DNA of 64,000 bases from Candidatus Magnetocorallium paracelense (GCA_029001845.1 JAREWP010000062.1:1-64000); one strand, 5' to 3'. Numbered from the stretch's first letter, positions 17,936-25,924 are shown. A program made the numbers and translations. The notes: generated by a model not told the origin, from the sequence alone.

Positions 17936-18733
17936 TTAAAACGTTTCTCCATCGATATGCCTCTTTTCTTTTAAATATCGGAATTGTCGATAAAGAATAT
18001 ATCCCCCCCAGAGCATTGCCGCGATCATCAATATGGATCCGATCGTTTTTGAGAAGACCGCCAGAGTGTGGTCATATTTCAGCCAGCCCAGTTTTCGAAG
18101 TATATATTCCCAGTCGTGATAGTCTGTAACGTCCCTGCCCGTTACACCGCCAAGGAGTATGAGTGTAAGCGATCTTGCATCGTTTATGTATGGAGCCATA
18201 TCGATAAAATTTTCTCCAAGCCACCAAAATGACACAGAGGCGGCAAAGGTATCTCTTGTGCGGAAAAGAAAGGCCGTCATACAAATTAAGGGAACCAGCA
18301 GTTGCCCCAAACTCCCTCCCAGGGTCATTATAAACTTGCCAAAAAAACGAAAAATCGTATGACCGGCTTCATGAAAGATCAGATTAACAGAGTGTAAAAA
18401 GGATTGCCCTATATAGTCGGATTCTATTGGAGATAATATGAATTTCCAGGACCAGAATAACAATATCATCAGAAGTATCGATCTGCCGCATAATGTAAGG
18501 GGATTGAAATCGGCGCCGGGGTAAAGTAAGAGTCTTACCAATGGTGATTTGCTCTTATCGGACGGTTTAAAAGAGTGCTTTATGTTTCCTTTAGACGTGG
18601 CGTCTTTACCTGATACTTTCTCTCTGCGCTCCCTGTATTTCTCAAAAACAATACCACATTTAATACATTCGGCGCCTTTGTCGAGCTGCTCAAAATTACA
18701 TTTCGGGCATTTCATAATATTGGTAAACATCAT
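17936..18733 (-). CDS. Zinc-ribbon membrane protein with HExxH motif
   Basis: 265 residues. An N-terminal zinc ribbon (Cys 9, 12, 23, 26; CPKC and CIKC) is followed by a charged linker and about five hydrophobic segments from ~82. An HEAGH motif (121-125) sits at the edge of a membrane segment, as in M50-like intramembrane metalloproteases. A candidate third metal ligand (Asp or Glu) is present further on in WWLGENFIDMAPY or GGVTGRDVTDYHDW. It starts six bases after the cysteine desulfurase. Function is not known; a proteolytic role is an inference from the motif only. Confidence 0.7.
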   Translation of the reverse strand: MMFTNIMKCPKCNFEQLDKGAECIKCGIVFEKYRERREKVSGKDATSKGNIKHSFKPSDKSKSPLVRLLLYPGADFNPLTLCGRSILLMILLFWSWKFILSPIESDYIGQSFLHSVNLIFHEAGHTIFRFFGKFIMTLGGSLGQLLVPLICMTAFLFRTRDTFAASVSFWWLGENFIDMAPYINDARSLTLILLGGVTGRDVTDYHDWEYILRKLGWLKYDHTLAVFSKTIGSILMIAAMLWGGYILYRQFRYLKEKRHIDGETF

Positions 18734-20414: not shown

Positions 20415-20966
20415 ATGAAGAGTTTCAAGTTTGGGATTCCTGTTATTGTTTTTTTAGTATTAACCTTTTTTGCAACCCATGAGGCGTTGTCGTTGTCAAG
20501 GGCTGAAATCGATGCAAGAGTCAATGCTACGGTCAAACAATTTCGATCCGATGTTGGAGAGGCCGATGAACTTATGAAAAAGGCGAAAGGAGTACTTGTA
20601 CTTCCAAAAGTCATGAAAGCAGGCTTGGTCATTGGTGGCGAATATGGAGAGGGCGCACTTAAAATCAATGGTAAAACCGTAAGCTATTACAGCTCTACTG
20701 CTGCATCCATCGGATTACAGATAGGCGCTCAGACAAAGGCTGTCATATTGTTGTTTATGACCGATAAAGCTCTTTCCCAATTCAGAGACAGTGACGGCTG
20801 GGAAGTGGGTGTTGACACGTCTGTTGCGATTGCTTCCCTTGGAGCCGGGGAGTCACTGGATTCCAATACACTAAAGGAACCTGTCATTGGTTTTATTTTT
20901 GGCAATAAAGGGTTGATGTATAATTTGACTCTCGAGGGAACGAAGATTACGAAAATAGATAAATAG
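20415..20966 (+). CDS. Exported SYLF/YSC84 lipid-binding-domain protein
   Basis: 183 residues with an N-terminal signal sequence (hydrophobic 7-26). The SYLF core follows: KKAKGVLVLPKVMKAGLVIG, the YGEGAL strand, YYSSTAASIGLQIGAQTK and the GEKGLMY-like GNKGLMYNLTLEGTKI. SYLF domains bind phosphoinositides in eukaryotes; bacterial members are periplasmic or secreted and poorly understood. AAAGGAG before the ATG is a good ribosome binding site. A terminator follows, and inverted copies of repeat D lie on either side of this gene and the next. Confidence 0.9.
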   Translation: MKSFKFGIPVIVFLVLTFFATHEALSLSRAEIDARVNATVKQFRSDVGEADELMKKAKGVLVLPKVMKAGLVIGGEYGEGALKINGKTVSYYSSTAASIGLQIGAQTKAVILLFMTDKALSQFRDSDGWEVGVDTSVAIASLGAGESLDSNTLKEPVIGFIFGNKGLMYNLTLEGTKITKIDK

Positions 20967-21031: not shown

Positions 21032-21454
21032 CTATTTAATCATAAATTTCAAAAGACCGAATATTGCAATCAATTGAGAGGCCCAAAATATAAACATCCA
21101 CTTAACAATATCGAATTTAACGTTTGCCAGATCAGCCTTTGATGCTTTATTTTCCAATTCTTTTTCGACCCTGGTAATTCGCTCATTGACCTTCCCAAGT
21201 TCAGATGACATTCGCTCATTGACTTTGCCAAGTTCAGATGTAATACGTTCATTGACCTTGCTTATCTCAGCAGTTATTCGCTCATTAATCTTACCGGTCT
21301 CATCAGTCAGCCGCCTTTCAAGGCGCTCTTCGGCTATAAGTATAGCCTCTTGCCTGGAAGAAAGGTCTATCTCTTTCACGACCTCTACAAAGGCGTCAGT
21401 AGCATCATCGCCAAGCTTGTCTTTTAATGGTCTGGGAACTGTTATTACTGACAT
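21032..21454 (-). CDS. Tail-anchored coiled-coil protein
   Basis: 140 residues: an N-terminal segment (LKDKLGDDATDAFVEVVKEI), a coiled coil with four near-identical 11-residue units (KVNERITSELG type, ~55-98), and a C-terminal hydrophobic helix (~118-137, MFIFWASQLIAIFGLLKFMI). The shape recalls the CCDC90/DUF1640-like proteins, and the assignment is by layout rather than firm motifs. The units come from a 33-base tandem DNA repeat at ~21180-21290. Function unknown. Convergent with the SYLF gene. Confidence 0.75.
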   Translation of the reverse strand: MSVITVPRPLKDKLGDDATDAFVEVVKEIDLSSRQEAILIAEERLERRLTDETGKINERITAEISKVNERITSELGKVNERMSSELGKVNERITRVEKELENKASKADLANVKFDIVKWMFIFWASQLIAIFGLLKFMIK

Positions 21455-21696: not shown

Positions 21697-22038
21697 TCAC
21701 TCGCAGTCGCAGTTTGTTGTGATATCCTTAATTGTCCATGACTCTTCGCCATTAACGATTTTGTCCCCTTCAAAGGGGCTTGGTCCTTCAAAGCGACTTG
21801 TTATCGTGTGTATGTGGACCTCATTACCCTTATCGCTGCCTACCAAAACGTCCAGGCTTAATAACTGGCATCCTTCGCCGCCCGATACGGTTCCCGATGT
21901 TTTGGCCTTGCATATTTTCCCTGTACATTCAATCTCCAATGCAGCATCGATCGTGTAGCCGTCGCGTTCAAACTTCTCGGCGAAAAGAGGTGATACGCCC
22001 ATTGCCAAAGCCATTATTGTTAATATAAAAACTTTCAT
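21697..22038 (-). CDS. Small exported cysteine-containing protein
   Basis: 113 residues from the chosen ATG at 22038. A longer frame from 22116 would run into the upstream gene and lacks a ribosome site, while AAGGAGG lies upstream of 22038. Residues 1-20 (MKVFILTIMALAMGVSPLFA) are a clear signal peptide. The mature part holds five cysteines (IECTGKICK, EGCQ, NCDCE) and ends at a CDCE. No family is recognised. It is the last gene of a three-gene run with the channel and MotB-like genes, so it may be an extracytoplasmic partner. Confidence 0.75.
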   Translation of the reverse strand: MKVFILTIMALAMGVSPLFAEKFERDGYTIDAALEIECTGKICKAKTSGTVSGGEGCQLLSLDVLVGSDKGNEVHIHTITSRFEGPSPFEGDKIVNGEESWTIKDITTNCDCE

Positions 22039-22061
22039 CCTTTTAAAACCTCCTTTTAAAA

Positions 22062-22991
22062 TTAATCCTGGTAGTAGTAATCGTACATGGAGAGAATATT
22101 CTGAGTGAATGTCCATGCCTCGCTGTACGAAAGATTGCTGTTTTCAGGGATAATTATTTTTACATAAAGATTATTTCCATACCGTCTTTTCAGGTCTGTA
22201 AGTCTCCTGTGGAGTTCGTCTTTGTTTATATTTTCATAATCTTTCTTGCCCACATCGATAAACTGTATTCTGGGACGGTCGTTTACCCTTGAAAAACTGA
22301 CAGTCACCTGAGTCTTGTTTAAAGGGCTCCTGGCAGGCTTGATAAGTTTCAGATATTTCTCTCTGAGGGTCGAGTACTCTCTTTGCTGCTCTGTAAGGGA
22401 TGCTTCGAGTTCCACCTGTTTTAAGCGAATACTTAAAAGTTCGCGTCTCGATTCTGAAATTAGTGTATCTTTCTCCAACAATATGCTGTCTTTTTCCGAT
22501 AACTTGCTGTCTTTGTCCAATAAGAGGGCGTCTTTTTCCGATAAGAGGGCGACTTTTTCGGAAAGCAGCATATCTTTTTCGTTTATTATCTTGTCTTTTA
22601 TAAGAAGAAGTTCCTCTCTCTCGTTTATTAACTCGTCTTTTTCAGAAAGCATCTTATCTTTCTCAAAAAGAAGAACATCCTTTAAAGAGACATCAAGCTT
22701 TAAGGAGTCGATATGTTCCTCTCTCTCTGCTATTTCGTTTTTCAGTATTACAAGCATATTCCTCAGCTTCTCCATCTCCACGATTTTTTTCTTTGCCAGC
22801 TCCTCCTTTTTGTAGCTTTCTTTGATTTTACTAATAAGTTCGGCATTTTTTATAACAACGGCAACCATTGTGAACATGAAGATCATCATTACAACGATCA
22901 TAATATCGGTAAAGGCCGGCCAGAAGGGGCCTCTATCGACGCCTGTTATGTCAGTGGGTTGTACGTATGCAGGTCTGTCAAAGATGTGCAT
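22062..22991 (-). CDS. MotB/ExbD-position membrane protein with long coiled coil
   Basis: 309 residues. One membrane helix (~27-48) carries an aspartate at its start (PAFTDIMIVVMMIFMF), as in MotB and ZorB. Downstream is ~145 residues of coiled coil built from seven-residue units of the type LLSEKDA (~100-180), encoded by a 21-base tandem repeat. The C-terminal ~85 residues are a small globular part (RPRIQFIDVGKKDYENINKD onward). No OmpA-type peptidoglycan-binding domain is visible. By MotB-like topology the coil would lie outside the inner membrane. It starts two bases after the channel gene, with which it should form a complex. Confidence 0.8.
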   Translation of the reverse strand: MHIFDRPAYVQPTDITGVDRGPFWPAFTDIMIVVMMIFMFTMVAVVIKNAELISKIKESYKKEELAKKKIVEMEKLRNMLVILKNEIAEREEHIDSLKLDVSLKDVLLFEKDKMLSEKDELINEREELLLIKDKIINEKDMLLSEKVALLSEKDALLLDKDSKLSEKDSILLEKDTLISESRRELLSIRLKQVELEASLTEQQREYSTLREKYLKLIKPARSPLNKTQVTVSFSRVNDRPRIQFIDVGKKDYENINKDELHRRLTDLKRRYGNNLYVKIIIPENSNLSYSEAWTFTQNILSMYDYYYQD

Positions 22992-22993
22992 TT

Positions 22994-23947
22994 CTATTTA
23001 CTTAAACGAAAACCTTCGGCCAGAATATTCTTTATCTTATCTGTTTTTTCGATAAACAGATCAAGCTTTTTAAGGTGAGAATCCTGGTGTGTAATCACTT
23101 TGTCCAGTTTATCCGATTGTGAAGCATTCATTGCGTTCAGGTTAGAAAATGCCGGCTCGATCCCTGATGCGACCTTTTTCAGTTCTCCTACAATGAGAGA
23201 GAGCTCCTTTATAAGCTTTTCCGTTTTAAGGTTCACCGATTCCGCTTCAAAGGTAAAATTCGGTATTATGTACATCATAGAGGTTTCATCAAGTTTTCCG
23301 AAAATATAAGAACGGATTTCTTTAAGCCTTTGGTAAAAATAGGAGAAAAAGAAATAGCAGACGATTGCCGTGGCCGTTGTTGTAAGAGCGGTGTTCATGC
23401 CATAGATTATAAGCCACATTCCGTCCCCCAGTACGGACTCTTTTAAAACGGTGCTTGCACCTGTGAGAGCCGTTATAACGGAGACAACAGTACCGAACAC
23501 ACCTGTAAGTATCAGTATATTATTGACGAATTCGGGGAAAGTCATATGCCTTGATTCTTCTGTATATGTTATTGTGGATAAAGCGCCGTGGTTTATGGGT
23601 ACGCCTCTTTCATAGAGGTGCTTGATTCGAAAGTAACGTCTGCTTATGATCGACTTTGTAGACATCCTTTGGAAGAGGTAGTCATCGTTTTTTTCTTTAC
23701 CGTCGATAAAGATATCGATCTGCTTCTCTTCAAAGGCGTAATGGAGGAAGCCTGAGACCAGTTTTACCGTACCGGCAAGGAAAATTGCAACAATTGCACC
23801 GTTTAATGCGAGCCCGAAAGAAGTGATGCGGTCACCAAAATAGAGATCGATAATAAAATCCAGATTCACCACCAATACAATGGCGGCGAAAACAAATATA
23901 ATAAAAAAATGCAGCAGGGCGTTATTGCTTCTATATTTACTTAACAT
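22994..23947 (-). CDS. MotA/TolQ/ExbB-type ion-channel protein
   Basis: 317 residues with four hydrophobic helices (~13-32, 42-66, 140-165, 180-207). Helices three and four carry the family's small-residue pattern (LTGVFGTVVSVITALTG and NTALTTTATAIVCYFFFSYF). A ~75-residue cytoplasmic loop lies between helices two and three, and a ~100-residue C-terminal tail is predicted helical. It is immediately followed by the MotB-position subunit, making a two-part ion-driven motor or energiser. A repeat C element lies seven bases upstream of the start. Confidence 0.85.
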   Translation of the reverse strand: MLSKYRSNNALLHFFIIFVFAAIVLVVNLDFIIDLYFGDRITSFGLALNGAIVAIFLAGTVKLVSGFLHYAFEEKQIDIFIDGKEKNDDYLFQRMSTKSIISRRYFRIKHLYERGVPINHGALSTITYTEESRHMTFPEFVNNILILTGVFGTVVSVITALTGASTVLKESVLGDGMWLIIYGMNTALTTTATAIVCYFFFSYFYQRLKEIRSYIFGKLDETSMMYIIPNFTFEAESVNLKTEKLIKELSLIVGELKKVASGIEPAFSNLNAMNASQSDKLDKVITHQDSHLKKLDLFIEKTDKIKNILAEGFRLSK

Positions 23948-24346: not shown

Positions 24347-25924
24347 TCAGCTCTTTTCGACTTTCCACTCTATAACACTCTTCTCCTCTGTACTGAAATT
24401 TATACCCATTAAAAATATCCGCTTCCCTGCTCCCAAATATTTTTCATAGTACTTCTTCTGCTTTATTTGTCGTATCCCCTTTTCTGCGCTTTGATTGCAT
24501 TTAAATTCAATGATAAAAAGTTTACTGTCGAATTCTATAACCATATCGATTCGCCCCTTAGATGTCAAGACCTCTGTGTGAGCTTCTATTCCCGATGCGC
24601 AGATCATCAGATAAAAGAGCGAATGAAAGTACCCCTCGTCCGCCTTTTGCATCAGAGTATAAGGAATGGAGGCATACAATCCCCTTAATGTTTTAAAAAA
24701 ACGATCATAATCTTCATTTGTAAGATATTCCGACAGTAAAATAAATTTTGATCGTTCCGAGCCGTCTTCAATCTCCGAGTAAGAGGTAAAAAGATGTCTT
24801 AGTAATGAAGTTTTTACTTCCTGGTTCGGATAACTCAGTATATAAATATAGTTTCTCACTGCCTTAATCGTCAGATAACCGGTTTGAAAGAGAATCGCTT
24901 CAATTTTCAGATTGTCGATATCGTAGGAAGTAAAAATATCTTCCGTTATTTCGATATTTTCCAGCTTAGGAAGGGAATAATTTTTATTTTTTAACAGCTT
25001 TATCAGGAATTCAGGAGTTCCTGTCTCAAACCAGTAGTTTTTAAAAGACAAACTTTCAAGAAGCAATAATATTGAGAATGGATTATAGACGCTCACATCT
25101 CTGTCAGAAAATCTGTAGCCATTGTACCAGACATTAATCTTTCCCAGTAATTGAGTATAGTCTGATCGATATTTTTCTCCCAGGGTCATTATATGGCTTT
25201 TGAAATATTTCTCCATCTCTTCCGGTGTATAACCAAGCATTTCGTTGTATTTCTCCTGCATTGTCAAATCGTAGAGATTATTCAGTTCGGAAAAAATCGA
25301 AACTTTGCTGAATTTCGAGACACCTGTGATAAAGACGAATCTCAAGGCGCCTGCTACATCGTCTCCCTTTAAAACGCCATAAAACTCCCTTAAGAGGTCT
25401 CTGTTATCCTTAGCTGTCTTCAATTTGTCACTCTCTTCGCCGATAAAATCTATCATTGGCTTGTCATACTCATCGACAAGGACTACAACTTCTTTGCCGG
25501 TATTCTCCCTTAACTTTATGATTAGTTCTCTGAATCTCCTTATCAGTCTGACGGATTCCAGTTGTATGTTGTTTTTTTTACCATACTCCTCAAGCGTATT
25601 ATTTAATTCTTCCTTGAGCTCTTCAGTTGATTTATGAGGAATGAGGTTGAAATCCAGTACAATTACGGGGTGTTCCTTCCATTCCCAATTCGTATGACCG
25701 TGAATCCACAAATCCTTAAATAATTCCCCATTGCCTTGAAACAGACATTTGAGCGTTGACACAAGAAGGGATTTTCCAAACCTGCGGGGGCGGGCAAGGA
25801 AATAAAGCCTTCCCGATTCAAGCAGACGAAATATATATCTCGTCTTGTCAACGTATAAAAAATTTTCGATTATTATCTGTCTAAAGGACTGAATACCGAT
25901 TGGTAGTTTTTGATATTTTCCCAT
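24347..25924 (-). CDS. AAA-like ATPase with C-terminal PD-(D/E)XK nuclease domain
   Basis: 525 residues. The N-terminal AAA-ATPase-like domain begins LPIGIQSFRQIIIENFLYVD and has the unusual P-loop RPRRFGKSLLVSTL (~45-58) and a Walker B region VVVLVDEYDKP (~146-156). The C-terminus has a PD-(D/E)XK-type core: GRIDMVIEF (Asp) and FIIEFKC (E-x-K). This is a common family in anaerobic bacteria, often in many copies per genome, whose biological role is not settled (mobile-element or defence functions are suggested). It stands alone. Confidence 0.9.
   Translation of the reverse strand: MGKYQKLPIGIQSFRQIIIENFLYVDKTRYIFRLLESGRLYFLARPRRFGKSLLVSTLKCLFQGNGELFKDLWIHGHTNWEWKEHPVIVLDFNLIPHKSTEELKEELNNTLEEYGKKNNIQLESVRLIRRFRELIIKLRENTGKEVVVLVDEYDKPMIDFIGEESDKLKTAKDNRDLLREFYGVLKGDDVAGALRFVFITGVSKFSKVSIFSELNNLYDLTMQEKYNEMLGYTPEEMEKYFKSHIMTLGEKYRSDYTQLLGKINVWYNGYRFSDRDVSVYNPFSILLLLESLSFKNYWFETGTPEFLIKLLKNKNYSLPKLENIEITEDIFTSYDIDNLKIEAILFQTGYLTIKAVRNYIYILSYPNQEVKTSLLRHLFTSYSEIEDGSERSKFILLSEYLTNEDYDRFFKTLRGLYASIPYTLMQKADEGYFHSLFYLMICASGIEAHTEVLTSKGRIDMVIEFDSKLFIIEFKCNQSAEKGIRQIKQKKYYEKYLGAGKRIFLMGINFSTEEKSVIEWKVEKS

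Follow-up and report, generated by a model that had tools for sequence, protein, structure and literature searches.

A two-gene family of putative ion-driven motors whose B subunit carries a long coiled coil and a predicted TolR-type domain

Two adjacent genes of Candidatus Magnetocorallium paracelense, which we call A and B, represent an undescribed and fairly widespread two-gene family within the superfamily of 5:2 motors. The preferred reading is that the AB pair forms an ion-driven motor, probably of 5:2 stoichiometry, with a register-locked rod that would extend to the outer-membrane side and serve the maintenance of the envelope, and we put the probability of this reading at roughly 0.55. 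Confidence differs between the parts of this picture. The architecture is very probably as described below, a role at the outer membrane or in the envelope is about an even bet, and a role in lipid handling is doubtful.

Results

Locus and genomic context

The window, by which we mean the whole stretch of 64,000 nucleotides that was analysed, had initially been annotated with three tightly packed frames on the minus strand, separated by gaps of 2 and 23 bases, and these coordinates were confirmed. The features of the locus are as follows.

22994..23947, minus strand: A subunit gene, 317 aa, predicted divergent MotA/TolQ/ExbB-family channel
22062..22991, minus strand: B subunit gene, 309 aa, membrane helix, long coiled coil and predicted TolR-type domain
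21697..22038, minus strand: small exported Cys-containing protein, 113 aa, outside the module, merely following B in the window genome
23953..24084, no strand assigned: MITE-like inverted-repeat element with 34-nt imperfect inverted arms, outside the AB family

The earlier observation that the pair has no flagellar, Tol or Zorya neighbour in the window also holds. The window genome (Nitrospirota, with relatives in the Thermodesulfovibrionia) has separate TolQ-TolR-TolA, ExbB-ExbD and MotAB-type sets located elsewhere, thus AB would be an extra motor. The MITE-like element, which is present in the genome in at least 40 copies of 92-97% identity (40 listed of 273 candidates), ends 5 bases ahead of the annotated start codon of A. 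Given this position it may have changed the promoter or ribosome-binding region of AB, and the expression of the pair is possibly altered in the window organism.

Several other genes of the window were noted in the course of this work. Upstream of A on the same strand is a protein with AAA-ATPase_like and PDDEXK_9 domains (24347-25924, minus strand), and no such gene recurs beside AB in 77 non-redundant loci. On the other side lie an LA_3696-type protein that has a membrane helix at its C-terminus and is predicted to form a coiled coil (21032-21454, minus strand; NF047472, 5.7e-13) and a SYLF-domain protein of the BPSL1445 family (20415-20966, plus strand; 1.5e-64). Further away, a membrane protein (17936-18733, minus strand) combines a zinc-ribbon-like CxxC pair near its N-terminus with a HEAGH motif inside a hydrophobic stretch; it matches no family above the Pfam cut-off and looks like a divergent M50-type membrane metalloprotease.

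The A subunit

Judged by its sequence, A is a divergent member of the MotA/TolQ/ExbB channel superfamily. The window protein matches PF01618 with E=3.5e-4 and 20.7 bits, which is slightly under the Pfam cut-off of 22.9, and the same profile is matched at E<=0.01 by 31 of the 34 A-family members, the best of them at 3.9e-6 (L047, 27.1 bits, above the 22.9 cut-off). The channel pattern that had been recognised in A by the initial annotation is thus borne out. Hydropathy and the alignment place the first two helices at residues ~15-33 and ~46-64, followed by a cytoplasmic loop, and the third and fourth after this loop at ~144-162 and ~180-205. The fourth falls under the hydropathy threshold in the window protein and is apparent in its homologues. 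The protein continues in a C-terminal tail of ~100 residues with a conserved GFRL motif at its end. A weak likeness to ZorA is seen in 20 of the 34 members, for which the nearest profile is ZorA2, while the window protein itself has no PADLOC match, and a PDB sequence search with A returned only coiled coils, on the tail.

The B subunit

Three segments and one residue of B are important for what follows.

22848..22922, minus strand: B residues 24-48, membrane helix (signature [FL]WP.FTDIM, invariant columns, ZorB profile match over residues 19-75)
22905-22907, minus strand: B D29, aspartate invariant in the family
22344..22844, minus strand: B residues 50-216, continuous coiled coil of ~25 nm (AlphaFold2 helix, hydrophobic period, tandem repeats)
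22065..22343, minus strand: B residues 217-309, predicted TolR-fold domain (AlphaFold2, VIA-align, hhalign)

The single membrane helix and its aspartate that had been proposed for B are confirmed: D29 is invariant, as are the alignment columns W24, P25, F27 and T28. The helix appears to be of the MotB/ZorB type, with matches to PADLOC ZorB3 (1.4e-7 over residues 19-75) and to the PDB chain 8vvn_B (8.4e-6), and the first 75 residues of B match PRK09040 at 1.9e-6.

AlphaFold2, run for B with 39 family members, gives one helix from residue 29 to 216, with a mean pLDDT mostly above 90, and a compact domain at 227-306. The hydrophobic residues of the coil recur with a period of 3.50. Across the family the coil has about 150 to 550 residues, and the spacing between helix motif and end-domain start varies from 178 to 577 residues. 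When these anchor-to-anchor lengths are taken modulo 7, a single class accounts for 56 of the 73 sequences. The length differences between disjoint pairs of nearest relatives are exact multiples of 7 in 17 of 25 cases (p 1.5e-9), and 24 of the 25 are equal to 0, 3 or 4 modulo 7, corresponding to heptads or to stutters/stammers. The coil therefore acts like a rod with a locked register, gaining or losing length by whole heptads or by stutters. The DNA that encodes the window coil consists in part of 21-bp (7-residue) and 42-bp tandem repeats, thus the heptad changes could come partly from slippage rather than from selection on register. The off-register differences are almost only of 3 or 4 residues, which still points to a maintained coiled coil.

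The lengths of the rods were computed at 0.1485 nm per residue. The shortest is 22.7 nm, the median 26.9 nm and that of the window 25.2 nm, with about two thirds of the family between 23 and 30 nm, which should suffice to bridge the periplasm. The remaining ~32% exceed 30 nm and reach up to 82 nm, so for these an upright straight stance is impossible in a normal periplasm and tilt, fold-back or breaks would be needed. Two B proteins with coils of ~550 and ~470 residues (L152 and L153, 70-80 nm if straight), whose genes adjoin his-operon genes, are hard to fit in the periplasm. Peptidoglycan lies ~9 nm from the inner membrane (PMC4646322). Even the shortest rod over-reaches this distance, which would make the outer membrane the natural target.

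The initial annotation had described the C-terminal domain of B as small and unknown and as not ExbD-like; our models show instead that it has the TolR fold. Its predicted secondary structure order is b-b-b-a-b-a, with a mean pLDDT of 86 and values mostly around 90 over residues 227-306. Structural re-alignment of Foldseek's candidate list with VIA-align gave TolR 5by4 at Z 9.3 (2.4 A, 86 of 93 residues) and TolR 2jwk at Z 8.5 (all 74 residues), and the next unrelated chain came at Z 6.2. Foldseek itself, with either the full B model or the end domain, had no match at E<=0.001 and returned mostly RNase H-like integrase cores. Sequence comparison is in line with the fold assignment in its register, as hhalign of B against five TolR/ExbD sequences (E 0.0018, yet with a probability of only 15%) aligned the helix, the LYVKIIIP strand and the SYxEAW helix, the last with the TolR ADxxxxYGxVV segment, in the expected register. 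The NCBIfam TolR model matches B at E 0.47 and covers only the helix, and there is no Pfam ExbD match in B. The window protein ends in YDYYYQD, and most members end in Y-D-Y-Y-x-Q-D.

Distribution and conservation

Single-sequence searches with A in 60 relatives and 395 genomes of the phylum returned only ordinary TolQ (L010) or nothing, and the same type of search in plasmids, phages, viral contigs and a first genome scan found no relatives of A. Two weak matches (L017 and L018) were inspected and judged to be chance. The family surfaced only when the query was the helix of B together with its end domain. With this query a second Nitrospirota genome (G416) was found that has the same gene pair, with identities of 52% for A and 41% for B. 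When the B end domain was then run against 84,980 species genomes, 42 loci emerged. Nearly all of these are from Gammaproteobacteria (Thiohalomonas, Leucothrix, Thiotrichaceae, Ectothiorhodospiraceae), and the others include Mariprofundaceae (Zetaproteobacteria), one record labelled Deltaproteobacteria and the Nitrospirota. An even sample of Gammaproteobacteria has B in 55 of 369 genomes (~15%). The tree of A groups the window protein with G416 and two other sequences at a support of 100/100.

In all 74 non-redundant loci that have room for it (of 77), A immediately precedes B in the same orientation, and the frames often overlap by 4 bases. Their neighbours are housekeeping genes such as radC-coaBC, thiC, his genes and dtd, in an order that is kept within clades, which argues against a role in defence. 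Viral sequences scanned with A, B and their alignments likewise yielded no relatives, so a link to phages or defence islands is not indicated. No named model for the family was found in the family libraries searched, nor any description of the AB pair or of a link between a motor and MlaC in the open-access literature. The initial annotation had named placement in an already described Tol, Exb, Mot or Zorya subfamily as a result that would refute it; by curated cut-offs, AB lies outside all of these.

The proposal that fared less well was that of a three-gene module including the exported Cys protein, for which a survey of co-conservation had been suggested. That survey found no homologue of the third gene in the 42 AB loci, and its relatives, at 41-45% identity, are in five genomes of the same family in which A was not found. 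The gene that follows B in G416 is dapB, on the opposite strand. The third gene is not co-conserved, an outcome that the initial annotation itself had counted as a refutation, and the conserved unit is A plus B; a private role for the Cys protein within the window lineage is possible. As a separate observation, one clade has a different exported Cys-containing protein (177-180 aa) between B and MlaC (L025:2845-3375, L027:4376-4915, L029:492-1022), and the one of these that was scanned has no Pfam match.

Association with an orphan MlaC

MlaC is a periplasmic phospholipid carrier. In 10 of the 77 non-redundant loci AB has an MlaC gene next to it in the same orientation. The order differs between loci (MlaC-A-B or A-B-x-MlaC), the loci belong to three separate branches of the A tree, and AB-linked genes match PF05494 with E=1.5e-33 and 1.4e-21. 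The linked MlaC proteins and unlinked ones of other AB genomes group in a single clade (100/100), separate from the MlaC of ordinary mla operons, and where the flanks of the orphan genes were read mlaD is not adjacent. This stand-alone clade of Gammaproteobacteria (L160-L178) is fully supported as separate from the mla-operon proteins.

Using a profile trained on the AB-linked sequences and a score of at least 118 bits for membership, the orphan clade is found in 24 of the 55 Gammaproteobacteria that have AB and in 2 of the 70 that are AB-negative (Fisher 1.2e-8, a test that ignores phylogeny). With the AB-adjacent MlaC genes removed the comparison is 19 of 50 against 2 of 70 (5e-7). The two AB-negative genomes with an orphan MlaC (G520 and G445) gave no divergent A in a search that ran without a positive control. 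More than half of the AB-positive genomes are without the orphan MlaC. Leucothrix arctica has AB and no MlaC match at all, and in both Nitrospirota AB genomes, including that of the window, only ordinary MlaC was found. This makes the association a lead for part of the AB family, rather than for the whole family or for the window organism.

Discussion

Comparison with known systems and alternative readings

With TolQ-TolR the AB pair has in common the channel superfamily, a one-helix B-type subunit with an essential aspartate, the predicted fold of the end domain and, probably, service to the outer membrane. The differences are in the build of both subunits, as TolQ has one helix ahead of the cytoplasmic loop where A has two, in the manner of MotA, and TolR joins its helix to its domain by a short link only, whereas B has the register-locked coil of 150-550 residues. 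Genes for TolA, TolB or Pal do not recur in the 77 non-redundant AB neighbourhoods, and an identity with a Tol or Ton system was rejected on these companions even though the end domain appears to be TolR-type. A related possibility is that AB is an ordinary Tol/Exb-type energiser, whose TolR-like domain would sit on peptidoglycan, with the coil as a flexible spacer and the force passed to a TonB/TolA-like partner elsewhere. We consider this rather unlikely, while giving it serious weight. The fold of the end domain agrees with it, given that truncated TolR binds peptidoglycan (PMC4646322), and the variable genes beside AB would be compatible with a partner encoded at another locus. However, a reach of ~9 nm would be enough for peptidoglycan, yet no rod is shorter than 22.7 nm; a flexible spacer would not hold the heptad register; and no TonB/TolA-like gene recurs beside AB.

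The Zorya pair ZorA-ZorB (types I-III) provides the nearest profile for the helix of B and, weakly, for A, and it has the same gene order. Its long tail is on A and in the cytoplasm, whereas AB has its coil on B, with the putative TolR-type domain at its far end. ZorB ends in a Pal/OmpA-like peptidoglycan domain (PMC11890865), which is absent from B, where the sole folded periplasmic domain matches TolR. The score against the Zorya model NF041788 is 21.6 bits, compared to a cut-off of 400, and no ZorC/D/E-type genes recur in the AB neighbourhoods. Identity with Zorya was rejected on cut-offs, companions and end domain alike. These same points make it improbable that AB is a Zorya-like anti-phage motor with effector genes that are lacking or unrecognised. 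The weak ZorB and ZorA2 matches would fit such a motor, as would the window gene upstream of A with its AAA-ATPase_like and PDDEXK_9 domains, but no nuclease or helicase recurs in the 77 loci and the surroundings are housekeeping genes, not defence islands.

The orientation of B also has to be considered, as the coil could in principle work in the cytoplasm like the ZorA tail if B were inserted in reverse. The flanks of the helix carry a mean net charge of -2.5 on the N-terminal side and -1.5 on the following side, thus the positive-inside rule lends no clear support to an N-in orientation. Against the reverse insertion, the aspartate and the [FL]WP.FTDIM signature align with MotB and ZorB, which are both N-in, and TolR-type domains are known solely as periplasmic. 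Additionally, the coil and end domain of the B family have 0 cysteines in 21,828 residues (the A family has 29 in 8,794), which fits a periplasmic location, although coiled coils are Cys-poor anyway and this is supporting rather than decisive. We give the reverse insertion very little credence. By homology and by its TolR-type domain the coil of B is probably periplasmic, and the earlier placement of the coil outside the cytoplasm seems to have been right. Least credible of all is a machine of three components whose output would be the exported Cys protein, which is suggested by the tight packing of three genes on one strand in the window genome but contradicted by the absence of that protein from the other AB loci searched, the nearest relative G416 included, and by its presence in genomes where A was not found.

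Other non-flagellar and flagellar motors resemble AB in part. MotA-MotB and PomA-PomB have the same helix order in A and an aspartate motif near the start of the B helix, but AB has no OmpA-type domain, a small cytoplasmic loop and no linkage to flagellar genes, none of which recur in the 77 loci. An identity as flagellar stator was rejected on the TolR-type end domain and the lack of flagellar context. GldL-GldM and AglR-AglS(Q) are, like AB as we read it, non-flagellar motors acting across the periplasm. GldM spans the periplasm by a chain of folded domains and not by a coiled coil that ends in a TolR-type domain. Non-flagellar pairs were recently grouped as 'generic ion transporters' (GIT) by Puente-Lelievre et al. 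2025 (PMC12505986), with compact B subunits without extended linkers and with the word 'coiled' absent from the text. AB would belong to that heterogeneous group and differs from it by the long coil of B.

Proposed mechanism and implications

Motors of the 5:2 superfamily work by ion-driven relative rotation of A and B (PMC9389320, PMC11890865). For the preferred reading, that of an ion-driven motor with a rod to the outer-membrane side, we picture five A subunits presumably arranged around two B subunits, as in the MotA-MotB, ExbB-ExbD, TolQ-TolR and ZorA-ZorB superfamily. Ions that flow through A and pass D29 of B would cause A and B to rotate relative to each other. The two B chains would exit the channel as a parallel coiled coil, forming a stiff rod that carries rotation or strain to the paired TolR-type domains, which may lie well past the peptidoglycan, at the outer membrane or close to it. 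Looking at the gene associations, the work done at the far end of the rod is most likely outer-membrane or envelope maintenance, and in a large subset of Gammaproteobacteria it could be linked to the dedicated stand-alone MlaC-type phospholipid carrier.

A more specific version would be that AB directly powers the movement or hand-over of phospholipids across the periplasm, with the rod and its outer-membrane TolR-type domains loading or unloading the dedicated MlaC-family carrier. This is a speculative proposal that we think is probably wrong, but if true it would describe a lipid transporter driven by ion-motive force and not by ATP.

The described 5:2 motors that serve the outer membrane pass on their force by way of a separate partner (TonB, TolA) or rely on anchoring to peptidoglycan. 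In AB the motor's own axle is apparently the arm that transmits the force, varying threefold in length yet keeping the coiled-coil phase. The coil lengths of the family make up a natural series for separating torque from pull, and insertions of +7 and +3 residues should differ in their effect. As to what drives phospholipids from one membrane to the other, the link to a dedicated clade of MlaC proteins points to an answer that can be tested.
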